Source: Pigoraptor vietnamica
Lineage: Eukaryota > Opisthokonta > Filasterea
Direction: 5' to 3'
Length of the DNA stretch: 21,377 nt
Assembly (NCBI GenBank): GCA_943704525.1
Contig: CALSCQ010003033.1
Span: 1-21,377, forward strand
Shown: in pieces, positions 3,001 through 21,377 of the stretch
How the letters are laid out: every line of letters begins with the position of its first letter
Position numbering within the stretch: position 1 is the stretch's first letter
Translations under genes and position numbers: made by a program
The notes under the pieces: model-generated
The model's input: the letters and a program-made list of their open reading frames with translations, nothing else
The model's database searches: none
What the model was told of the DNA's origin: nothing

Positions 3001-4278
3001 AAAGACGACACATAGCGCCCACACGATGGACATTCTCTCGCCAACCGCACACCAGCACAAAGTTGACAATGAATGTTCGTGTGCGTACACCGCGTAGGCG
3101 ACTTCGCGACGACATCCCACGCACCGCACTTCCTCGGCGCCCGCGATCACTTTCGCCTCGAGTGCCTCTATGCGCTCTCTGTCGCGCTTCCCTTGCTCGT
3201 ACATGCGGATGTGCAGCCCTTCGTTCTCCTCAATCTTCGCACGCAGCTCTTGGCCGGCCACGTCGAGCGACTCCTGCAGTGCCTTGGCCTGCTTCTTGCC
3301 GCCGCCGAGAAGGGACCCCGAGCGGCTCTCTTTCGCGTCGAGATCTGCCTGTAGCACCTGTTGAGAGCGGTCAAGAACGACGGGGACACGTGAGCGTGGG
3401 AGCGACAGGGAGATTGTGTATAAGTCGACCACACGTGAGAGTGAGAGTGAAAGGGATGTTGTGCATAAGTCGACCACACGTGAGAGTGAGAGTGAAAGGG
3501 ATGTTGTGCATAAGTCGACCACACGTGAGAGTGAGAGTGAAAGGGATGTTGTGCATAAGTCGACCACACGTGAGAGTGAGAGTGAGAGGAATATTGCATG
3601 AGATGGCAACACATGACAGTTATTCTGCTCGAATAGCTGGACATCGACCGGCTCCGAGACACAAAGGGAGCGTGTGCCGCGCTGCACTCCCACAGTCGTG
3701 AGAATGTTCTTCTTATAACGAGAAACGCCAAATAAGCGTGCATTCCGTCCACGCACCTCGACGCGCTTGCTGAGTTGCTGGTTGTGAAACTCGAGCTTGT
3801 CGATGTCCTCAGTCATCTTTCGTATTTTGACCTCTTTCTCCTGCACAGTTGCGCGAAGGCCAAACGACAGCCCTTGCTCCTGCGTGGCATTGCTCACGAG
3901 TGAACACAAACTCGCACGCACACCGGAGTAGAATACACGCACTCACACCCACACCCGCACGCACACACACGCACACACATGCACGCACACACACACACAC
4001 ACTCTCACACATATAGACTACATATACATGCATGCCAACCATGCAGCAGCACGCACCTCCGACAAGGCCTTCTTGAGAACACCCGTCTGCGCCTTCATCT
4101 TGCCGTATTCTTGGGCCAGTCGCGAATACAACACGACGACTTGCGCCAATCCGATGGACTCTGCATCGGCCATCGACAGAGACGTGATGACTCCCACTGG
4201 CGACGGTGCAGCAGACCCCGTCGGCGTCGCAAAGGTGGACGCTGGCGAGACGCCCCTCGACGCCATGCCGTCTGCCAT
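1..4278 (-). CDS. PPP1R21: PPP1R21 orthologue (FERRY complex subunit Fy-2), eight exons, 3' end outside window
   Basis: Exons on the minus strand: 4278-4057, 3879-3757, 3357-3125, 2915-2736, 2590-1670, 1541-833, 667-575 and 277-137. All phases agree and give 874 residues; the last donor (136) leads to an exon beyond the left edge. In animals PPP1R21 is a coiled-coil subunit of the FERRY complex, a Rab5 effector that carries mRNAs on early endosomes. Matches to the family, in order: [17 protein letters not shown] near residue 55 (the KLRAQ region), [17 protein letters not shown] near 104, [10 protein letters not shown] in exon 3, a long helical middle domain (exon 5) ending [21 protein letters not shown] in exon 6, [21 protein letters not shown] in exon 7 and a C-terminal coiled coil in exon 8. 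The start is the first in-frame ATG; a second one, MADAESIG, lies nearer the human start. Acidic and Ser/Pro-rich linkers in exon 6 are less conserved. Intron 7 is GC-AG. The exon 5 donor (GA|GTTTGA) is weak and is the least certain junction. Confidence 0.88.
278..574 (-). other. GC-AG intron (PPP1R21 intron 7)
   Basis: The exon reads ...TCGTCACAG and is followed by GCAAGT, the usual sequence of a GC-AG donor. The intron ends TTTTGCGCAG. Joining the two sides in phase 0 gives [11 protein letters not shown], which matches TSQLQLADSK in animal PPP1R21. No GT donor in the neighbourhood restores this match. The intron also holds a G-rich run on the transcribed strand. Confidence 0.8.
392..422 (-). 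other. Potential G-quadruplex in PPP1R21 intron 7
   Basis: The plus strand has C runs of 9, 4, 4, 7 and 3 separated by single T residues, so the pre-mRNA sense strand carries five G runs with one-base loops. This meets the usual G4 pattern of four or more G runs of at least three. It lies about 150 nt after the GC donor. Formation in the cell is inferred. Confidence 0.6.
719..815. repeat. (CA)n microsatellite in PPP1R21 intron 6
   Basis: Nearly uninterrupted CA dinucleotides with CG variants on the plus strand, so TG on the sense strand. The run begins about 17 nt after the donor at 832 and ends some 50 nt before the acceptor at 668. Cys/Val-repeat reading frames here are artefacts of the repeat. 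Confidence 0.95.
3390..3602. repeat. 45-bp minisatellite in PPP1R21 intron 2
   Basis: Four full copies start at 3390, 3435, 3480 and 3525, with a partial fifth from 3570. Copies 2 to 4 are identical; copies 1 and 5 have diverged. Each unit carries the palindrome GTCGAC, and CACGTG spans each unit boundary (3387, 3432, 3477, 3522, 3567). Because the unit is a multiple of three, several frames stay open across it. The flanking exons join precisely without it (KRVE-VLQADLD), so it is intronic. Confidence 0.95.
3956..4011. repeat. (CA)n microsatellite in PPP1R21 intron 1
   Basis: A degenerate CA/CG dinucleotide run on the plus strand, TG on the sense strand, inside the intron between exon 1 (ends 4057) and exon 2 (starts 3879). 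Confidence 0.9.
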
Positions 4279-4862: not shown

Positions 4863-7144
4863 ATGGGGACATCGCGCGCATCGTCCACTCTTCTGGTCGA
4901 CCGTTCGCTGCTCAACGCAAACTTTGACGGCTATAAGTTGTCGTTTGAGAATGTGCCGCGTGTGGTGCAATCGAAAGGACCTCGCCCAGGTGCGTGTTGA
5001 GCACATACAGCACACGCACACGCACACGCACACGCACACGCACACGCACACGCACACACACACACACGCACACACACACACACGCACACACGCACACTCA
5101 CACACACACGCACGCACGCACACACACACACACACACACGCACGCACACAAAACAAAGCCATAATTACACCCTTTACTTACATCTTGACGCTTTCGTAGA
5201 CGTTCTCGCGTGCGACGCGGGCCACTTTTCCTTCAACTACGTTCGGCTATTCCAGTTGCACAACCACCTCTTCGCGGACCCACATGCGGCAGTCCCCTCG
5301 GCATATTACGTGGACGCAGAGTGGAATGTGATTCGTTGCGTGGCCGAGGTGTGTACACCTTACCCTCCGGCACTTGCGCGTCTTCGCACCCACGTCCCTG
5401 TGCCCTTTGTGCTAGTACGTGTGTGTGCGCGTGCGTGTGGGCGGGTGGCCGTCTGTGTGCGTGAGTGTGTATACGTGTGTGTGAGAGCTGCGGCGTGGCT
5501 GTCCATTGGTTTCATTGTTGCGTCCCGGTCGCGCGTTATCCTCCCGCTGATAATACCACGTGGCTGCCTGTGCAGCATTCGACAGGCATCCACTTTAACT
5601 CCGTATTCTCCATTCCGGGCCTCGACCGTCGCACCGCCGTGCGCGACGCGCTCCCCCCTACACTCCATTTCCCCTCTGCCGACGTCGCCGTCATTGCGGA
5701 TGGCGCGGGTGCGCTTCACGTGGTGGACCGCAGCCAGCCTGGCACATGGGCGCCGGTGTTCTCGTCAGCCGAGGCGTTCGAAGGCAAACCGTTCATGCTC
5801 ATCGCATGCAGCGTGCACGCTGGCGGGTGGCTTGTGCGGTGCACGGCGCAGGCCGTCTTCGATTCGGGGTCGTCTGGCGCTGCGGGTTCCACGGAAAGAG
5901 AGGCGCGCGGCGGCCGCACGGAGCTGAGGGTATTCGACATTGCAATCGGAGCGGACGGCGCGCCCGGTCGCCTGTTACTGCGCGGCGTGCTGCGTGGGAA
6001 GGACACGCCCCGCTACGCGTCGATCGATCCCGAGGGAGGGTCACTTGTTCTCATTGGGACAGGGGCGTTTCGCGTGCAGGGCGCGGCAGGCGTCGAAGGG
6101 TCCTCGGAGGTTACGCCGATGGAAGTGGACAACGGCGGACAGGTCGATGTGTCTGAGGAGAGAAGGCGGGAGGCGCCGCCGTACGAGTGGTCGCAGACGG
6201 ACGATGAGGTCGTGCTCCGCGTGGTTGTGGATGCGTCGACACGCAAAGCGGACGTCTCGATTGTGACGCGGCCCGACGCGCTGACGGTGAGCGTGAAGGG
6301 AAAGGCAGTCGCGAACGGCTCGCTCGGTGGGCGCGTGTTGCCGGCGGAGACGGTGTGGACGCTCTCTGACGGCGTGTTGGAGGTGACACTTGCGAAGGCG
6401 GACCGCTCCGATTCGGGCGAGCTCTCGCGCTGGCCGTGCTTCGTGCAAGGCGATGGCGTGGAGGAGACACTCAGCATCGAATCGGTGGCCGTTGCGCGCG
6501 AGGCGCTCGAAAAGTACACGAGCGAGTTGGAATCCGCGCCCACCGACAGGCCGGGTGCGGCGGCCGCGCGCCTCGGGCGAGAGATAGAAGAGTGCGATGC
6601 GGAGAGCTCTGAGGACGTGGCTATGTCCGTCTTTTCGCTTCCGCCCGTTTTCTCTTCGGACGGCAACGGCGACGACGCGCCCGTCGTGCTCAAGCAGACG
6701 GTGAATTTTGGCAGCCACGGGTTTCTCTTCCTGTGCGCGCTCCAAGGGGAACCGATGAGTGGATTCTGCGCGCAGTACAATGTCGACGCTCTCGTGTATG
6801 CCGTCCGCGGACGAACGGCACCGTCCGTACCTTCGTCTGACGAGGGTGCGGCTGTCGAGTGCGCGCACGTGGCAACGTTCAGCGCCCTCGGATACGTGCA
6901 GGCGTCGAAGCGCGAAAAGAAGTTTCTTGCGTGCGCGCCTGACTGTGCATATGCGGCGCTGTGCGAATCGAACCGCCACGTGTTTCTGTACATGCAAGCG
7001 AAGGAACGGCGTGCGTCGAATGCGAAGCAGTTTGTTGTCACTCTCGACGACGAGGACGAGGGGCTGGTCGGGTGCGCCGCACTGCGCGGTGTCGCGTTCA
7101 TCATGGCCGCGCCGGGCGCCGTGTGGTCCATAGAATTGCAATAA
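4863..7144 (+). CDS. NUDCD1: NUDCD1 orthologue (NudC domain-containing protein 1), three exons
   Basis: Exons 4863-4989, 5200-5348 and 5576-7144 (stop TAA) give 614 residues; human NUDCD1 is about 583. The introns are in phase 1 and phase 0. The protein begins with the family pattern of an Arg/Lys-Ser/Pro-Leu-Leu start followed by FDGYKLSFENVP. A beta-rich region follows. A CS (p23-like) domain spans about residues 294-384, from PYEWSQTDDEVVLRV to WPCFVQGD. The C-terminal propeller part has VDALVYAV, ATFSALGYVQASKREKKF, CAPDCAYAALCESNRHVF and a final strand. Those last motifs are almost identical to the human protein. CS domains of the NudC type act as Hsp90-linked chaperone modules; in humans NUDCD1 binds the COPI/DHX15 group of clients. 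The linker before the CS domain and an acidic segment (DDEDEG) near the end are lineage-specific. The start is the first ATG, in context with the conserved N-terminus. Confidence 0.92.
5010..5150. repeat. (CA)n and (CACACG)n microsatellite in NUDCD1 intron 1
   Basis: The run opens with hexamers CACACG and passes into CA with CG interruptions. It fills most of the 210-nt intron, from about 20 nt after the donor to about 50 nt before the acceptor. Here the sense strand reads CA, unlike the minus-strand genes. Confidence 0.95.
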
Positions 7145-7508: not shown

Positions 7509-8569
7509 TCATCGCAAGTACGGAGGCAACGCGCGGAGGTTCTTGATCATCGATCGCCGCGCCGAGCGACGCAGGGGCGTGTGCGTGCTCGGCAGCGCGT
7601 TTTCGTTCGCCGGTTCGGCCTGTGCGCCCATTGCGGTGGGTCGCGGCGAGGATTTCGGGGCGGGCTCCCGGATGACGTTCTCCGTGGCGCTGGCGTCGAA
7701 CTTTGGGCCGAGCTCGGCGACCTTCGCAATGCGGCGCGCGCGGTGCACGACATCGGGCATGGTCTGGTGTACGTGCGTGCGCGTGCGTCAGCATACATGT
7801 GTGAGCGCGATTCTTATAGGGGCAAGTTATGCAGGGGAGATGTGAATGAACATGTGTGTGAAACGGACTAACACATTCGACAGACGACGTTCAGCAACAC
7901 AGTGCGTGGTCAAGCGATGGGGGCGCGCGCACCTTTCGGATGGTCGCGAGGGAAGACATCGAGTCTTGCCACATGGCGAGAACCTTCTCCAGCTCTGCTC
8001 ACGTGAGGAATGCCGAACGAGAGTGAGTACGACAATACCACGAAATTCCACAGACATGTCGGGTCAGCCTAAGTCACAGACGCGTGTCCATCGACTCCAC
8101 GACTCACAAAATCCACAGCGACAGCACATCGAAGCACATCAACACGTGACGTTTCGCAAACAGAGCAACGAGAGAACCCAAAGCACTCTTGGCGCATGTT
8201 GAAACATATGCGGCGCTTCCGATCGTGCGATGCACTTGCCTTCGATCGACGCCCCCGCAATGCTCGTGTGCTCGGCGACGGGGGGCGCGAGGGCCGACGG
8301 GGCGCACGCGGCGTCCGCCTCCCTCCCGGCCTCGATCATCTTGCACACCATCGCCTCCACTTCGGAGGGGACCGACTTTCGCTTGGCGGCAACGTCGACA
8401 ATCAGCGCGTTCACCTCGACGAGAAGGTTTGTCAGCTGAAGCTGCGCGGCGTCGTTGACGGGCTCGATGGCTGCACACGCAGAAGGACGTTGTGAACATC
8501 GGTCAAGAAGAAGGCATTGCGTAGAAGCAAACGCACGCGCACACTTGCACACATGGGCATATGCACGCA

Positions 8570-8616
<47 letters not shown>

Positions 8617-9030
8617 GTGCGATTTGCACACACACAAACCTTCGGTAGTTTTGTCTGCATTCTCCCAATCAACGCCGCCGATCTGAATGTTCTGGTGGAT
8701 CGCATCAAACATGCTCTTGCACACCTGCGACAACAACACAGCATAAGCACGCGCATGCGCACACACTCTCGTGTGAAGCGTACACACAATGAAGACGCGA
8801 CGTTGCCAAGGACGCCACCAAAATAACAAAAGCTCTCGACTGAGAGGAATAGAGAAGTAGGCGCGTGATGTGACAACGAAGCCTGTGGAGCCACCCACAT
8901 CGCCCATGCGCGCGCGAAATGTGTCTCGCTGGCGCTTCGTCCAACTCTTGGGAATGTAGTCCTCGACGCCGCGCATCAGGCGGTGTTGGAGGGTGTCCAC
9001 CACCTGTTTGTTCGCGACTTGCACCTTCAT
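7509..9030 (-). CDS. NSL1: NSL1-like subunit of the MIS12 kinetochore complex, five exons
   Basis: Exons 9030-8899, 8724-8640, 8470-8240, 7994-7933 and 7763-7509 (stop TGA) join in consistent phase to 254 residues; human NSL1 is 281. The MIS12 complex links CENP-C on centromeric chromatin to the NDC80 complex. Family matches, in order: KMKVQVANKQVVDTLQ-like start (human RVRCTSKRAVTEMLQ), FDAIHQNIQIGGVDWENA near residue 51 (human FESAVQENISINGQAWQEA), LIVDVAAKRKSVPSEVEAMV near 98 (human IIVDIATKRKQYPRKILECV) and a helical ELEKVLAMWQDSMSSLATIR segment near 150-169. The C-terminal exon is poorly conserved and basic (TPLRRSARRSMIKNL). Intron 3 is GC-AG. The start is the first ATG after the upstream stop and sits at the conserved region, so it lacks the human N-terminal extension. 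Identification rests on the order of four motifs and on similar length; MIS12-family coiled coils can be confused with each other. Confidence 0.78.
7995..8239 (-). other. GC-AG intron (NSL1 intron 3)
   Basis: The exon ends ATCGAAG and is followed by GCAAGT; the intron ends GTGAGCAG. Both flanks agree in phase 1 and the join restores a Glu codon (SIE-ELEKVL). A second GC donor in one window supports routine use of GC-AG introns in this genome. Confidence 0.65.
8572..8614. repeat. Perfect (AC)n microsatellite in NSL1 intron 2
   Basis: An uninterrupted AC run of about 43 bases on the plus strand, TG on the sense strand, close to the donor of the intron at 8639-8471. Flanks are also CA-rich. Confidence 0.95.
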
Positions 9031-9368
9031 CTTCGCAGCCCTCGAATCCCCACAGGGAACTAGAATATGAATGAGAAAGTACAAGACTAATGTAGGAGAT
9101 GGTTGACCAGATGCTCGCTTCTTCGACTACGAGTTTGTGGAGGACGTGCGCGTGCGTGCGTGTGCGTGTCCCCAATTCAAATTTTTTTTGGCGCCCTTTT
9201 TCTCATACTGCTATATTTGTATTTAGCAGGAAATGATTGCCAAATATGGATACATTGCACGTTACTTCCGATCTTTTCGCGTTACTGTATTGGCTGCGCG
9301 AGCACGAACGCAGGCCACGCAAAAGCTAGACACAAAATACAACGAGACTCTCCGATGCATGCTCCCCT
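9031..9368. promoter_or_regulatory. Region between DRC7 3' end and NSL1 start
   Basis: The two minus-strand genes are arranged head to tail with 338 bases between the DRC7 stop and the NSL1 ATG. The stretch is more AT-rich than the genes and holds an 8-base T run followed by GGCGCC. It must contain the DRC7 3' UTR and the NSL1 promoter. No other gene is visible. Confidence 0.6.
9187..9195. promoter_or_regulatory. E2F-like site TTTGGCGCC upstream of NSL1
   Basis: Matches the E2F/DP consensus TTTSSCGC, 157 bases upstream of the NSL1 ATG. E2F sites commonly drive S/G2-M genes, and NSL1 is a mitotic gene. Functional use is inferred. Confidence 0.4.
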
Positions 9369-12300
9369 CTACAGGAGGTGAGCGAGGCGTTGGTCGCTCC
9401 GGAGGCGCGCGTCGAGCTTGATGTACTTCTGCGGCGCGCTTTCCTTGTGCGCCGCAAGCCGCTGCTCGAGAATGTGGATCTTGAACATGGCGTCGTTGCA
9501 AAACGCGACGTACTCCTCCTCTTCCTCCTTGTCGATCGTGCTCTGGTTCTGCGCATACCACGCCTGGCGCTTCTGCAGCTCGGCCGTCTCCTCCTCGAAG
9601 CGCGACTGGATGAGATTCGCCTTGTCGATGAGCCGCTGCTTGAGGTCCTTCAGGCACTCCTCGCGCACGCGCTGTGCGTCCTCCGCCGTCAGCTTGTTCG
9701 GGCGGTCGAGACGTGCGAGGAACGGCGCCAGGTAATCCAACTCGGCGGCCGTAGAGTCCTCCTCGGTCTTCTTCGTCTCGATCTCCGCGCGGTGCGAGCG
9801 GATCGACTTGTTGCGCGCCGTGTCGTAGAACGAAACGGTCAGCTGCACAGACGCCTCCTCCTTCTTGCGAAGCGCGAGAATGTCGCGGACCTACGCAGTT
9901 CAAAAAATGATATCGTCAGTGGACGCACATTGATATACCGCGCCACACACAATAATATGCGCGTGGACGCCACCAAAACATGCGAGCGGAGCAAACTAAC
10001 CTGCTTCTCGCTCTCCCGCACAAGCGACGTGCACGTGGTCTCGGCGTGCAGGAGGTCTTGAAGCTCCTCCCACAGCTGAATGCGCTTTGGCGGCTTCGTT
10101 GGCTTGAGTCCGTGGAACTGCGTGATGTCTTCCAGCCCCGTCGCCTTCTCCCCTTGCGGCTTGACAAAATCGCGCGTCGACGCAATGATGCGGTCGGGCT
10201 CGAGGTGGAACGTGAGGCGGATGCTGTCCTCGCTCACAAAGAACGTGCGCTTGTTGACCTGTTCGCCGGCGGGTGCGTCCGCGCGCAGGGCAAATTTCTC
10301 CGTCATCTTGCGAATGGGACGGTCCTCAGACGGTGCCGCCATCGACCGCGCCTGCTTCCCCGGCGTGGCCTGTGGCGGCGGCGCACCGATGAGCGTCGGC
10401 GAGTCAAACGTCGCGCTCCGGTACGTCAGGTTGTCGTCCGTGTCGACAAACGTCTCCGTGAGCTTGCGACCCGTGTCGTGGCGGGTGACGAGGCCGTCCA
10501 GACGTGCGTTCGAGTAAAAGTGCATCGTCATGCTGCCGTCGCCCTTGCCCGGCTCAAAGTAAATGTGCTGGCGGAGAGAGTGCACGCGGCCGGGGGCGAA
10601 CGTCTCCGTCACGAGCCCGCGCGGGACGATGCGCGACCGCTCCACCAGCCGGTCCTTGCGGTTTGCGTACGTCTCGCGAATTTCGGCGACCTCATTGTTC
10701 GAATCCTCCTTGAAGATCGTCAGTCGCGACACGAGGCCGTCCTCGCGCACATATTCGGCAAACTTTTCGAGCTTCGCGCCCTTGTAAAGGAGCGTCTTCT
10801 TGCCGCCAGGACACCGCGACTGGTACTCGTGCGCGTTGATCTGTGGACACACACGCAATGGCTGGGGTTAGAACACGCAAGGAAGCCTTCGCACTAGAGG
10901 CACAATATCCTTCGGAATCGTACCTGTATGCGGTTCACCCACGACGGCGGGAGATCGAGAATGGCCTCCGTCTCGTCGTCTTCGGGCTCGGGCGAAAGCG
11001 GTGGCGACGTCGGCGCATCGTCGTCTTCTGTCGGCTTTGGCACGTTCGGCTGCAACTTGGTGCTCTCCGGGAAGATGTACTCCCAACGCGACGTGTCCGC
11101 AAGTTCGTACGCCATGCTCTGGACGGCGCAAATGGGCGGTTTGTTAGCTCAAACGTGCGACGGACGGTGTGTTTCAGTGTGTTTCAGTGTTTGCATGGGC
11201 GTGTGTATGCAATTACGCTCCCCCACAATATCATATAGCCATCCGTACTCACCCCGACGCCCTCGCTGCAGTCCTGCATGTTGACCCAGTAGTTGGCATT
11301 GGACCACACGCACTCGATACCGAGGTACTGGAAGTGGTTGGTCGGGTAGATCTTCCCTGTCGACGGCTCGACAAAGAACGCCTCGGGAACCTCGCGCTTC
11401 CCCGCAAGCACGAGCACCCAGCTATGCACGCGCAGGCCGTGGAGAACGTCCGCCTTCGGCTTGTTGCGCTCCTGTTGAGTCGCGCAGTTCACCGGAAATG
11501 AGAAGAGGACACGCGCCCAAAAAGTGGCGGCCAAAAAACTATCGATTGCACCAGTAGTATCGACCAGCCAAGTGTTATGGAAGGATAGATTTCACACTGA
11601 CCGCCTTCGCCGCTTCCTCGTCCTCTTTCCTCTTCCGCTCGGCGGCCTCCGCGAGTGCCTTTTGCTTCGCATCGTACTTGAGAATGAAGCGACTCTTCAA
11701 CTCGCGCGGCGGCTTCACCTGCAGCGCACGATAAGTAGCACGTCAGTAGACACACAAACAGATTACAGAAGCGCGACATACGGCACCCTTGTTGCGCGAA
11801 TGCAGCTAAGCATAGGAGTCTCACGTAGGCGAGAATGCACGCACGCAACCCCACGAGCTACGTTGCCCTTCTAAACACAATCCGTCACTCACTTGGTAAG
11901 AGCACTCCTGTTCCTTGACTTGCTCCACGGGGGGCGGCGGCGGCTGGACGAGCAGCGGACAGATGACTCGGGACTGGTCCATGAGCGTAATCTCTCGCGC
12001 TGCGTATCCGCACACGCAGTACGCGTCGTAGCCCGCGCCAAGGAGGAGGGAGCACAACACCATGCTAAAGTCGAAGCAGTTGCCGCCGTGTCGTTCGAGC
12101 GTGAGGGTCGGAGAGCACAGCTTGTCGGGCTGAGGAGAGAACAAACGAGACATTAAGCGAGGCTGTCGGAGTCCACACACGCAGCGAAGGCACACGTACA
12201 CACTTACTTGCACTCACACACACACACACACCCAGCCAACGATTCCACTAGCGTTGCGCGTGATGTAATAAAAAAAAAGTGAGGCCCACGCACCAGCTCT

Positions 12301-13135
12301 GTCGGGTTTGAGAGCGGTTCGTACACGAGGTAATCCGCAACAAAGCTGGCGCATCCGTCGTAGTCGTACAGCTCCTTGTACGGAAGGAGGGTTGGGCGAA
12401 GCGTCGTGCAGACGAATTTCTGCGAGACACGGAATATGTTAGAAAATATGGACTCGCAATACACACCACACACACAGACACACACACTCACACGCCACAC
12501 GGTACACACGCGCTACACACACGCACACACACACATAACACACACACATAACACACACACAACGCGACAGAATGCGCGCGCACCTCAACGCCCTGCTCGT
12601 TCGGCGGGCAGAGCAGCAGCGGCTTGCGGTCGGGGTACAACTGCACAAACTGCCGCCTGAAGTTCTCCACAAACGCGAGCACGAGCTCCTCCTTGTACGA
12701 GTTCGTCTTGTACGACTCCGGCACGGCCTTCTGGGGGCCATCCTTCTTCCCGCTCACCGGCCGCGACGACTTCGTTGTCACAGCCTCAATCTGATTCCGC
12801 AAGTCCTCCGCCTCGAGTATCAGTGACTCGTGCGACTCTGCCGACATGGGCCCATCCTCACGCTCACTCCCGGGCGACTGCGGCACAGACACTGGTCCGT
12901 CCGCCGGCACCTCCTCCGTGTCCATGTCATCGGCGCCATCCTCAAACGTGACCGTCGCGGGCGGTGGGTTCGACGTCGAGAGCAAGTTTTCCTTGCTAGA
13001 GCCGCGCTGGGGCGACCCGCCCTCAGCCAACAGCGAGTTTTGAGAGCCCGCCGCACTACGACCGGGAGTTCGAAGCCCCACGGTTGCGGGCGAGGGGTCG
13101 TCAAGGTTCGAGCGACTGCCGACCTGGCTCGGCAT
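9369..13135 (-). CDS. DRC7: DRC7 (CCDC135/Lobo), nexin-dynein regulatory complex subunit 7, eight exons
   Basis: Exons 13135-12584, 12419-12294, 12129-11893, 11718-11602, 11471-11253, 11118-10924, 10840-10001 and 9890-9369 (stop TAG) give 935 residues; human DRC7 is about 874. All seven introns are phase 0. DRC7 is a linker subunit of the nexin-dynein regulatory complex that controls dynein on the axoneme. Signature segments are all present: SYKTNSYKEE and LYPDRKPLLLCPPNEQGVE (about 150-184), KFVCTTLRPTLLPY, the transglutaminase-like HGGNCFDFSMVLCSLLLGAG with Cys244, DVLHGLRVHSWVLVLAGKRE, YWVNMQDC, PPSWVNRI, GLVSRLT, then LDYLAPFLARL, KQRLIDKANLIQSRFE and ILEQRLAAHKE near the end. The first 140 residues are a Ser/Pro/acidic low-complexity tail not typical of the family. 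Presence of this protein means the organism builds motile flagella. A candidate RFX X-box lies upstream. Confidence 0.96.
12213..12232. repeat. Short (CA)n run in DRC7 intron 2
   Basis: About ten CA units on the plus strand, TG on the sense strand, between exons 2 and 3 of DRC7. Confidence 0.9.
12460..12563. repeat. (CA)n microsatellite in DRC7 intron 1
   Basis: A degenerate run of CA with CG, TA and CATAA interruptions on the plus strand, TG-rich on the sense strand. It fills the 164-nt intron between the donor at 12583 and a TCTAAC branch point at 12443-12438. Confidence 0.92.
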
Positions 13136-16352: not shown

Positions 16353-19004
16353 TCAAGACGACTTCGAAGCCGTGTTCGGTTCCGACGGTGCCTCCAGATT
16401 GTCTCCGAAAGCCAGTCCTCCGTCGGCGTATCGTCCCACGCCGTGCGCATCCGTTTCAGATGCGCCCGTGTAACCACCTTGCGAACGAGGCCTCTGCGCG
16501 TCGGTAGCGCGATGCATGGCGGGACCAGCCCATCTCTCTCCCATTCGCGGTGTGCCTTCGCGTCCGCGCGCGCCTTCCCTCCTGTCCCTGTGCACGGGTG
16601 CGTCCCCGCCGTAACGACCGTCCGTCCGTGCGCGGGGGGCAAAGGGCAGTTGTTCAACCGAGAGCTTCTTCCACTCGTCGCCGAGAGGGCGCGCCTCTCG
16701 CCATCGCATGCGACCTGCGCCTCCGTCGTCTGTCGAGCGCTCAGCGAAACGGCGCTCAGCGAAAGGTCGTTGGCCGCGCGATCCGCGGAAATGATCGCCT
16801 TTTCTTTGCGAACGACGGTTCCCGTCGTCGCCCACAGGCCTCTCAGCAGCGCCCTCGAACCTGCGCTCGCGGTCCGTCGCTCGCTCGTCGCTTCCGGGCG
16901 CTTCTCCTCCGTCAAACCCGGACGCACGCTCGTCAAATCGGCGCTCGTTACGTCGGCTACCGTGGCCTCTGTCGCCGCCGAAATCGCGCGCCTCTAGCGT
17001 GCCCCACGAACGCCGATCCTCCCACTCGCCAGCGAATGAGCGCTCACTCAATCGCCCATCCGAAGCACCGCCAGCGACCTCGCCGTCCCCGTCCTCTCGG
17101 TCGCTCTGCGATCCATCCGCGCTTTCCTCCCGTTTCTTCGCTGCACCGCCCGTTCGAAACTTGCCGCGTCTGCCCTGTTGGCCGACATCCGCCGCCTGCA
17201 GAGTGGCGACGTCCACGCCCACCACGTTGCGAAGGGGCTCGTTGATCGCGGCCGCAAATGTGCTCGACGCGAACGTCGCCGCCCTCAGCTGCTCCAGCAT
17301 CTTTAGGTCGACGCTTATCCGCGCCTTGCGACAGAGTTCCAGCACGCGCTCCGCCGCCGCGGCGTTCTTGGCTCCGCACGCGGCCCGCATGAGGTTGCCC
17401 AGAATGGCGACAGACAAGCGCATCCCCTTGCGCTGTCCTATACGAAACGCGCGCTCCGCAACATCGACGCGCCCAGCCGAAGCCGCGACCGTGAGCGCCG
17501 CACGCACCGTGAAGTCGTCTGCCGCGAGTGACTCGATCCCCCGTATGTCCGAAACACGGACCTTGCTGCGGCTGCGCAGCTCCGGCGCTGGACTGCTACC
17601 CACATCCTCGGCCTTCCCGAGGCCCATGGGCGGCGCTTCAATGACGCCGTCATACTGCTGAACCTCCACCTTCTCCGCCTTCTTGCCGCTCGCCCCTCGC
17701 GCGAGGCACTCGAAGAGTGCAAAGGCCTCGTCAAAGCGGCGGCGGCGGCCGAGCGACAGCATGAGCGCGTTGACGAGTGGGAGGTTCGCAGTGAGCCCGC
17801 TCTCCGCAAACGCTTTCGCGACGAGCGTCGGGTCGAGTCCGCCCACAGAGAACGAGCGCCGCTGTTCTCCGACGAGAATAAGGAACGTCCAGATGTTGGG
17901 CTCCACTTGCGCCTCCACCATCTCCGTAAGCACCGTCAGCGCCGCGCGCTGCATCTCGATAATGCGCTCCGACTTCCGTTCCCACGACATCTTCGGGTCT
18001 TCGCGCGCCTCAGCCTCGAATGGCGCCGCCATGGCACCCTTCAGCAGCGCGTTCCAGATGTTCGTGTCGGCGCGGCGGCGTGCGAGGACCGAGTCAAAGA
18101 GCGCCGTCCTGTGTTCGACCGTGCGGCAGTTCACCGAGAGCATCGTCACGGTCGCTTCGTTGGGGAAGTTCTCGATGCCCACCTCTTCGTTCATCAGCGC
18201 GATCGCTTCGGTCATAAGCCCGGCCTTCGCAAACACCATAAGGTACGCGTTGAGCACCATGGCGTTCGGCTCGACACCGACCGCGGACATCTGCGCGCGA
18301 TACTTCTTCGCCTGCTCGACCTTGGGCGCATAGCTGTTCTTCGCTAGCGCAGTGAACAGCGACGTGAAGGTAGACTGGTCCGGGGGGAGCCGCCTCCGCC
18401 GCATGTCGGCGTACAAAGAGATGGCCCGCTCGCCCCAGCCCGCCTTTGCGCACACGTCAATCAGCGCATTCCACACCGCCGGTTTTGCCCACGTGTCGTT
18501 CGAGATCATCTCGTCGAGCCACATGAACGCGCCCTCGTAGTCCCCGCGGTCGCCAGCCTCCGATATCTTCTGGGTGAAGAAAAACGCGTCCTTGACGGGC
18601 CGTCCCTTCTTCGGTCGCACCCACTCGTTCGTCACGGGATGCCGGTACGAATAGTTTCGCAGGCCCGCCTTCGTGATGAGCGCGCGAATCTCGCGCACGA
18701 GTGCACGGCGCTGCACGGGATCCTGCACCAGCGCGCACTCGGCCTTCTTCGCGTCAATCTCTCGGATCAATTCCGGAGGCGCCATACGCTTTCGCTCCTT
18801 GACTGGCAGCGGCGCAAAACGACCCGGGACATAATTATGCCTGATGCGTCTCATGATCGTTTCGCCCCCAGCCGTTGGCAGTCGCTCGAGCACGGCTGCG
18901 GTTGTGTGGAGGCCGCTTCGATGTGAAGAAGCTACAAGGAGACGATGTGCCGGCCGCGACAGCGCGATCGCGCGTGCGGCGGCGCCCCAGAGCAATAACG
19001 ACAT
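16353..19004 (-). CDS. Mitochondrial pentatricopeptide repeat (PPR) protein with long charged tail, intronless
   Basis: One uninterrupted frame of 883 residues ending TGA. The start is the first ATG. The N-terminus (MSLLLWGAAARAIALSRPAH, followed by RLLVASSHRSGLHTTAAV) is rich in Arg, Ala, Leu and Ser with no acids for about 39 residues, as in mitochondrial presequences. PPR-type helical repeats run from about residue 142 to 270 (for example VWNALIDVCAKAGWGERAISLYADM, cut here into its two helices, and LNAYLMVFAKAGLMTEAIALM), with weaker repeats at 316-440 and 495-560. PPR proteins bind organellar RNA and act in processing, stability or translation. From about 604 the protein turns into an Arg/Glu/Asp/Gly-rich low-complexity tail with recurrent RRF-x-ER units near 688, 714 and 751. 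This resembles RNA-binding RGG-like regions. The exact family member is not recognised; a PTCD1-like role is only a guess. It is divergent from the LPGAT1-type gene. Confidence 0.86.
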   Translation of the reverse strand: MSLLLWGAAARAIALSRPAHRLLVASSHRSGLHTTAAVLERLPTAGGETIMRRIRHNYVPGRFAPLPVKERKRMAPPELIREIDAKKAECALVQDPVQRRALVREIRALITKAGLRNYSYRHPVTNEWVRPKKGRPVKDAFFFTQKISEAGDRGDYEGAFMWLDEMISNDTWAKPAVWNALIDVCAKAGWGERAISLYADMRRRRLPPDQSTFTSLFTALAKNSYAPKVEQAKKYRAQMSAVGVEPNAMVLNAYLMVFAKAGLMTEAIALMNEEVGIENFPNEATVTMLSVNCRTVEHRTALFDSVLARRRADTNIWNALLKGAMAAPFEAEAREDPKMSWERKSERIIEMQRAALTVLTEMVEAQVEPNIWTFLILVGEQRRSFSVGGLDPTLVAKAFAESGLTANLPLVNALMLSLGRRRRFDEAFALFECLARGASGKKAEKVEVQQYDGVIEAPPMGLGKAEDVGSSPAPELRSRSKVRVSDIRGIESLAADDFTVRAALTVAASAGRVDVAERAFRIGQRKGMRLSVAILGNLMRAACGAKNAAAAERVLELCRKARISVDLKMLEQLRAATFASSTFAAAINEPLRNVVGVDVATLQAADVGQQGRRGKFRTGGAAKKREESADGSQSDREDGDGEVAGGASDGRLSERSFAGEWEDRRSWGTLEARDFGGDRGHGSRRNERRFDERASGFDGGEAPGSDERATDRERRFEGAAERPVGDDGNRRSQRKGDHFRGSRGQRPFAERRFAERSTDDGGAGRMRWREARPLGDEWKKLSVEQLPFAPRARTDGRYGGDAPVHRDRREGARGREGTPRMGERWAGPAMHRATDAQRPRSQGGYTGASETDAHGVGRYADGGLAFGDNLEAPSEPNTASKSS

Positions 19005-19076
19005 GTCATAATAAACGCAGCGCGCTTGCAAGTTAAAGAGAGACCGACGCTTGCGAACACACAGAAAAGAAAGAAA

Positions 19077-19143
19077 GAAAAAAACGACGGAGCGTTTCAG
19101 TGGTAACAGTCTTTTGCTTTTTGAAAAAAACGACGGAGCGTTT
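19077..19143. repeat. 21-bp perfect direct repeat in the divergent promoter
   Basis: The identical 21-base units at 19077-19097 and 19123-19143 consist of G, seven A and then cgacggagcgttt. Their starts are 46 bases apart. The position suggests a duplicated regulatory element rather than a transposon footprint. Confidence 0.85.
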
Positions 19144-19162
19144 GCACGTGTCGATTGACAGG

Positions 19163-19180
19163 GACGTCACAGTGACGTCA
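19163..19180. promoter_or_regulatory. Palindromic pair of CRE/bZIP half-sites
   Basis: GACGTCAC and GTGACGTC form a perfect inverted repeat around a single A (19171). The right arm extends to a full TGACGTCA (19173-19180). Two adjacent bZIP sites of this kind suggest CREB/ATF-like control of one or both flanking genes. Confidence 0.45.
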
Positions 19181-19409
19181 TTATGTTCAACCAATGGGAG
19201 GTCTGATTTTTTCTGTCACAAACACATCCCTTTGCTCCAACGTCGCTGTTTTGTGTTGACACGTACGTGCATCTTCACTCTTCCCCCTCCCACTTCGCCT
19301 CTTCCTCATTATATCCCCACTCTTTGCAGTCTCTATTCCCTCATTCTCCTCTCCCTGTGTCCCCGAGAGTAGCGGCTTCGCAGTGGGGTTGCCCGCCGAC
19401 GGCTGAAAA

Positions 19410-20582
19410 ATGCGGGCGACGGAAATCCTGACGACTTTCATCAGGGGTGGTGGCAGCGGCGCACCCGCAGTGCACAACCAGCCGCAAACGCCGCTCGGCA
19501 TTGTCGTCGCACTCGTGCGCATCGTCCGCGCTGCGGTGTTAATCGTGAACAGCCTGTGGACGGCGTTCTCTTACTCGTGCTTCTACGCGCTGCTGCGGCC
19601 GACGCTGGGCCTCGTCTCTCCCGCGCTCTTTTGGCGCGTGGAGGAGGTCATGTTCCAGACGGGACTCGCGGTGGTCGCATCGTGGATGTTCATCGGCGAT
19701 GTGGAGGTTATTGAGACGACAGAGACGGATGCCGTGTACGAGGAGCCGTGCATCGTCCTCGCCAACCACCAGGAAACTGGCGACGTCGCCGTGTTGATGA
19801 CGGCGGCGGTGGGCAACGGCATCGCCGGTCGCATGACGTGGATCATGGACGCGCTCTTCAAGTACACGCAGTTTGGGCTCGTCTCCGCGGGGCACGGCGA
19901 CCTCTTCGTGCAGGAGGGCCGCAACACGCGCGACGCTTCGGTGAAAGAAATCAACCGCCTCCTTCGTCGCCGATTTGCGAGCCGACGGCGCTTGTGGTGC
20001 GTCATTTTTCCCGAGGGCGGGCTTCTGTGGAAGCGGCGCGCGGGGAGCCAGAAGTATGCGCGGGAACGCGGGCTGCCTGTTCTGAACAACGTCGCTCTCC
20101 CGCGCCTCGGGGCTTTCAAGGCGACGATGGACGCGATCGGCCGCGACGTGCGCTCGATTGTCGACATTACGATCGGCTACAAAAAGGATCGCCCGCTGAC
20201 GATGATTGATGTGCTGACGGCGTCGCTCGGGCGCTACCCGGTGCACTTGCATTACCGGCGATTCGACATTTCGACCGTTCCGACTGACGACGAGGGGATG
20301 ACCACGTGGCTCTACGACCGCTTCGTCGAGAAGGAGAAGCTGCTCGAAGACTTTTACGCCACGGGAAGTTTCGACAGCGCCGCGTCCCCGCAGCCGTCGT
20401 CTTCTGCGGCGTCCGCGTCGCACGCACGCAGGAACAGCGGTCCCAAGGCGGGCACTGGCCGTCGCGAACGCCTTCTCGCCATTCCGCCGTGGTATCTTGT
20501 GGGCATCCAGCTCTTCTGGGCTTCGACGGCGTTCGGGTTCTATACGGGACTGCGCACGGCCATATCTGCCATGGCGTTTTGA
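19410..20582 (+). CDS. LPGAT1: LPGAT1-type lysophospholipid acyltransferase, intronless
   Basis: A single frame of 390 residues ending TGA. It is a PlsC-superfamily membrane acyltransferase, most like animal LPGAT1 (lysophosphatidylglycerol and lysophosphatidylethanolamine acyltransferase) of the endoplasmic reticulum. Visible features: hydrophobic helix at about 28-62, WRVEEVMFQ and VASWMF (75-94), motif I NHQETGD (119-125; His120 and Asp125 catalytic), MTWIMDALFKYTQFGLVSAG (142-161), motif III VIFPEGGLLWKRR (198-210), ALPRLGAFK (229-237), DITIGY and LHYRRFDI, then WLYDRFVEKEKLL (300-312), a segment diagnostic of LPGAT1 and its kin. A Ser/Ala-rich linker follows, then a last membrane helix at about 361-380. 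The start is the only plausible ATG, just after a pyrimidine-rich leader. AGPAT5/LCLAT1 are related, but FPEGG with KRR and the VEKEKLL segment favour LPGAT1. Confidence 0.92.
   Translation: MRATEILTTFIRGGGSGAPAVHNQPQTPLGIVVALVRIVRAAVLIVNSLWTAFSYSCFYALLRPTLGLVSPALFWRVEEVMFQTGLAVVASWMFIGDVEVIETTETDAVYEEPCIVLANHQETGDVAVLMTAAVGNGIAGRMTWIMDALFKYTQFGLVSAGHGDLFVQEGRNTRDASVKEINRLLRRRFASRRRLWCVIFPEGGLLWKRRAGSQKYARERGLPVLNNVALPRLGAFKATMDAIGRDVRSIVDITIGYKKDRPLTMIDVLTASLGRYPVHLHYRRFDISTVPTDDEGMTTWLYDRFVEKEKLLEDFYATGSFDSAASPQPSSSAASASHARRNSGPKAGTGRRERLLAIPPWYLVGIQLFWASTAFGFYTGLRTAISAMAF

Positions 20583-20939: not shown

Positions 20940-21377
<438 letters not shown>

Follow-up and report, generated by a model that had tools for sequence, protein, structure and literature searches.

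An intact, five-exon gene for the MIS12-complex subunit NSL1 (Mis14), apparently single-copy, in a probably flagellated eukaryote

The stretch of DNA analysed here (21,377 nucleotides, hereafter the window) almost certainly encodes an intact NSL1 (Mis14) gene, apparently present in a single copy, in a probably flagellated eukaryote; on the minus strand, from position 9030 to position 7509, five exons join in frame into 765 bases, that is, 254 residues and a TGA stop codon, and the product would be a subunit of the MIS12 complex. When the joined 254-residue protein was compared with Pfam-A, the Mis14 family (PF08641, NSL1) was matched at 38.7 bits (E = 1.6e-9), the curated cut-off of the family being 24.9 bits; the match spans residues 52-168 of the protein and positions 2-130 of the 133 positions of the profile, and no feature was found that would place the protein outside the family. 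The identity put forward in an initial annotation of this DNA, where a search of the 254-residue model against family profiles was among the proposed checks, is thereby borne out, Mis14 being the sole Pfam family matched by the joined protein at E up to 1.

The gene is composed of short exons, all on the minus strand. Exon 1 (8899..9030, 132 nt) opens with the ATG at 9030 and is supported by its frame and by the donor GTGGGT; exon 2 (8640..8724, 85 nt) encodes AIHQNIQIGGVDWENA; exon 3 (8240..8470, 231 nt) carries the core LIVDVAAKRKSVPSEVEAMVCKMIEAGRE; exon 4 (7933..7994, 62 nt) encodes ELEKVLAMWQDSMSSLATIRK; exon 5 (7509..7763, 255 nt) is an open frame entered in phase 0 behind the acceptor CACCAG, and holds a PDVVH-like stretch followed by a proline-rich basic tail ending in TPLRRSARRSMIKNLRALPPYLR, with the stop codon TGA at 7511-7509. 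Four short introns, of which one is GC-AG and the others are GT-AG, would have to be spliced out of the transcript to leave the message for the 254-residue subunit: intron 1 (8725..8898, GT-AG, 174 nt), intron 2 (8471..8639, GT-AG, 169 nt), intron 3 (7995..8239, GC-AG, 245 nt) and intron 4 (7764..7932, GT-AG, 169 nt). Their donors are, in order, GTGGGT, GTTTGT, GCAAGT and GTGCGC, and their acceptors end in TCGCAG, GTGCAG, GAGCAG and CACCAG; the third-position GC content of the five exons lies between 0.64 and 0.88. Since intron 3 ends in GAGCAG, an acceptor of the NAGNAG type, exon 4 may start at 7997 rather than at 7994, with the in-frame addition of one alanine. The initial annotation had described five exons, the shortest of 62 and the longest of 255 bases, with one GC-AG intron and with agreeing phases, and this is what is found, the splice phases being 0, 1, 1 and 0 in the joined 765-base frame; the four motifs that it had listed also occur on the minus strand in the order given, namely KQVVDTLQ in exon 1, NIQIGGVDWENA in exon 2, IVDVAAKRK in exon 3 and MWQDSM in exon 4.

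The contribution of the single exons to the family assignment can be followed in the profile scores. Exon 3 by itself matches Mis14 at 28.1 bits (E = 3e-6), above the cut-off; exons 2 and 3 joined reach 36.4 bits, a gain of about 8 bits from exon 2, while exons 1-3 score 35.3 bits and exons 3-5 score 31.2 bits. If exon 3 is joined to exon 4 across the GC-AG intron, the score is 30.7 bits and the match reaches position 130 of the 133 positions of the profile; if exon 3 is instead read through into intron 3, the score is 26.8 bits and the match stops at position 84. The support for Mis14 is clear from exon 2, modest from exon 4 and next to nothing from exon 5; exon 1 sits mostly before the start of the profile. 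One further, unrelated match, far under its cut-off, was returned with exons 1-3 and another with exons 2 and 3. Without exon 3, exons 1 and 2 gave no Mis14 match (REST_helical appeared at E = 0.14, below its cut-off), and exons 4 and 5 matched no Pfam family. This silence of the outer exons, together with the non-significance of exon 1 and of exons 4-5 in plain pairwise comparison with human NSL1 (see below), is what could be said for a string of unrelated exons resembling NSL1 by chance; such a coincidence is, however, hardly credible when exon 3 alone exceeds the Mis14 cut-off, when the score rises from 28.1 to 36.4 bits on joining exon 2 to it, and when the joined protein is matched with the E-value given above; for exons 2 and 3 it is already refuted by the Mis14 profile scores.

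The closeness of the protein to human NSL1 is uneven along its length. A phmmer search of the PDB at E up to 1 retrieved two sequences, both of them human NSL1 (5lsk_N and 8ppr_N) and both weak (E = 0.14 and 0.15). With human NSL1 (PDB 8ppr/8q5h chain N and 5lsk chain N) the protein has in common the motifs NI-I-G--W--A and IVD-A-KRK and the order of its parts, possibly also a head helix before the core; its length is similar (254 residues compared to 281), in keeping with the closeness to the animal protein noted previously. In local alignment the whole protein scores 80 against human NSL1, the mean of the shuffled sequences being 34.6, and none of 2000 shuffles reaches 80; in the conserved core, 22 of the 64 aligned residues are identical, as counted by eye in the local alignment. 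The initial annotation had called the protein a divergent NSL1: the family membership stands, whereas the adjective is slightly too strong for a protein with this degree of core identity and with one exon that passes the family cut-off unaided. There are also differences: the two core motifs are separated by a longer stretch here (the local alignment opens a gap of 8 residues), the N-terminal extension of 35 residues that human NSL1 carries ahead of the aligned start is missing from the five-exon model, and the human tail has a VLKRK/YPLR pair, of which no clear counterpart pair is seen in the C-terminal tail of the present protein.

Taken exon by exon, the local score against human NSL1 is reached by 3 of 2000 shuffles for exon 2 and by none of 2000 for exon 3; in the same plain local comparison exon 1 is not significant (1589/2000 shuffles reach its score), and neither are exons 4-5, whether taken together (1219/2000) or in part (454/2000 for the first 50 residues, 1242/2000 for the last 55). 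In a head-anchored global alignment, with boundaries picked post hoc, 185 of 5000 shuffles do as well as the whole of exon 1, and none of 5000 does as well as its core, the first 26 residues after the methionine; KVQVANKQVVDTLQHRLMRGVEDYIPK in this exon may be a helix of the head domain. For the start of exons 4-5 the corresponding global figure is 113/5000, with human boundaries picked after viewing the alignment. The human stretch RMQPVIHLQRIHQEVF, the C-terminal segment that binds Spc24-Spc25 and carries the PVIHL motif, finds its best placement at residue 171, on TMPDVVHRARRIAKVA, a placement that is not significant (380/5000 shuffles do as well).

Given that exon 1 and exons 4-5 are non-significant in the plain comparison and that no Mis14 match is obtained without exon 3, the two ends of the protein rest mainly on gene structure; the joins of exon 1 and of exons 4-5 rest on splice sites, on phase and on a modest profile gain. 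The start codon and one acceptor of the model are slightly uncertain, and a start or an exon further upstream is possible. It may be asked whether NSL1 is real but wrongly delimited, either by the omission of an upstream exon or start that would add an N-terminal extension of the human kind, or by a different choice of exons 4-5 (another acceptor or another last exon). This alternative, though unlikely, finds some room in the frame of exon 1, which remains open ahead of the ATG as far as position 9126, in the 35 residues that precede the aligned start of human NSL1, in the GAGCAG end of intron 3 and in the weak similarity support for exons 4-5. On the other hand, the ATG falls where the aligned human head begins, the Mis14 match is lengthened by exon 4, exon 5 brings the protein to a length near that of its human counterpart, and the upstream gene, DRC7, whose frame ends at 9369, lies about 340 bases from the ATG and leaves little room.

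The gene does not stand alone in its genome (32,526,649 bases in 1395 contigs). Nine kinetochore models, that of NSL1 included, were searched exon-wise with E limits of 0.001 for NSL1 and MIS12 and of 0.1 for NNF1, NDC80, KNL1, NUF2 and SPC24; seven were matched and two were not. In the six-frame search with Mis14, the NSL1 locus is the sole match at E up to 0.001, and the model gives no match in any of 14 control genomes of prokaryote type. MIS12 is found on C677 (exon matches of 39.3 and 36.9 bits, rising to 106 bits once the exons were joined by eye), NNF1 on C930 (one exon of 20.4 bits, below the cut-off of 23.7, and 29.8 bits for three exons joined by eye), NDC80 on C870 (97.1 and 45.8 bits), NUF2 on C7 (99.4 and 20.8 bits) and KNL1/Spc7 on C11 (84.5 bits); for SPC24 there is a weak candidate on C692 (23.6 bits, or 29.5 bits with its neighbours, the cut-off being 25.3), besides two further matches in this genome below the cut-off. 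In the same 14 control genomes the NDC80 and NUF2 models are silent, while MIS12 matches in 1, NNF1 in 1, Spc7 in 2 and SPC24 in 1, none of these above the cut-off. The donors of NNF1 and MIS12 read by eye (GTGCGT, GTGGGT, GTACCA and GTCTGT) resemble those of NSL1. Coiled-coil-like matches, each below its own cut-off, were also obtained with the joined MIS12 (seven) and with the joined NNF1 (one). In-frame TGA codons are seen within the NDC80 match (two, C870:6624-6920) and within the NUF2 match (one, C7:23746-24072); a simple guess is that these mark unread introns rather than a reassignment of TGA. The two models without a match in the exon-wise search of this genome are those of DSN1 (PF08202), the direct partner of NSL1, and of SPC25 (PF08234); since both are silent in all 14 control genomes as well, their silence does not show that the genes are absent.

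A decayed copy of NSL1 is another conceivable reading of the locus. Nothing was found in favour of a pseudogene, which is very improbable: the 765 bases run without a stop codon or a frameshift, the splice sites are intact, the third positions are GC-rich, and the locus is the sole Mis14 match found in a genome where other KMN genes are present. Both this reading and that of a chance resemblance were rejected in view of the intact frame, the intact splice sites and the profile score.

Other genes lie on both sides of NSL1. The NSL1 coding region fills, without overlap, the gap between a CS-domain gene and DRC7: to its left, on the plus strand, lies a CS-domain protein (5465-7144, PF04969, 45.9 bits, frame end 7144), presumably NUDCD1-like, and to its right, on the minus strand, the intron-split DRC7 (9369-12213; PF24671, 157.5 bits; PF24667, 259 bits). 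DRC7 is part of the nexin-dynein regulatory complex of motile cilia; the host is therefore probably flagellated, with a motile cilium. Further up from the DRC7 matches, one piece gives a CEP76-peptidase-like and a transglutaminase-like match, neither of which reaches its cut-off. Beyond these, the window holds matches to cytochrome P450 (14453-15826, plus strand, 129.2 bits), to pentatricopeptide repeats (16356-19166, minus strand, 84.2 bits) and to acyltransferase families (19407-20582, plus strand, 63.3 and 32 bits); tRNA genes were sought across its 21,377 nucleotides and none was found. At 3386-3596 a 45-base unit is repeated in tandem (4.7 copies, 93% matches), and the minus-strand open frame that runs over it (3168-3812) gave no Pfam match when scanned. 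CA-rich simple repeats occur at 719-815, 3935-4011, 5002-5150, 8573-8614, 12461-12561 and 21251-21377; the fourth of them, a run of 21 perfect AC units, falls within intron 2 of NSL1.

Starting from the gene, the frame, the family and the other KMN genes demonstrated in this genome, a role and a set of contacts may be proposed by analogy with published work on human and yeast. In the portions of the literature cited here, the Mis12 complex is described as a Dsn1-Nsl1 dimer together with a Mis12-Nnf1 dimer (PMC9252888), and in the human KMN network the C-terminal parts of Dsn1 and Nsl1 are reported to bind the RWD domains of Spc24-Spc25, the YPLR motif of the Nsl1 tail binding Knl1 RWD-N and its VLKRK motif the Knl1-ZWINT coiled coil (PMC11189301). 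By homology, the protein would have the same role as human NSL1: it would most likely pair with DSN1, join MIS12-NNF1 in the rod of the MIS12 complex, and, through its C-terminal part, help to hold NDC80C (Spc24-Spc25) and the RWD domains of KNL1, thereby connecting the inner kinetochore to the microtubule binders. The tail contains TPLR and PYLR, which may be counterparts of the human YPLR. That the NSL1-DSN1 arm has been rebuilt in this lineage, and its link to NDC80C and KNL1 reshaped, is an improbable proposal, drawn from the tail TPLRRSARRSMIKNLRALPPYLR and from the absence of a DSN1 or SPC25 match.

NSL1 outside animals and fungi was already known, since two NSL1 proteins, NSL1.1 and NSL1.2, members of the MIS12 complex in the plant KMN network, are reported for Arabidopsis in the part of the study cited here (PMC12595034). 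By that account they represent the same subunit, and they are shorter, with 140 and 139 residues and a single intron in NSL1.1, compared to the 254 residues and four introns of the present gene. In the section of van Hooff et al. referred to here, the absences of Nsl1 and Dsn1 in fly and worm are counted among the suspicious ones, perhaps false negatives (PMC5579357). With the present gene a fast-changing family gains a further NSL1, and the view of kinetochore function is left unchanged; an exon-level profile search can recover a short kinetochore gene split by introns, and cases such as this one help to separate true losses from missed genes.
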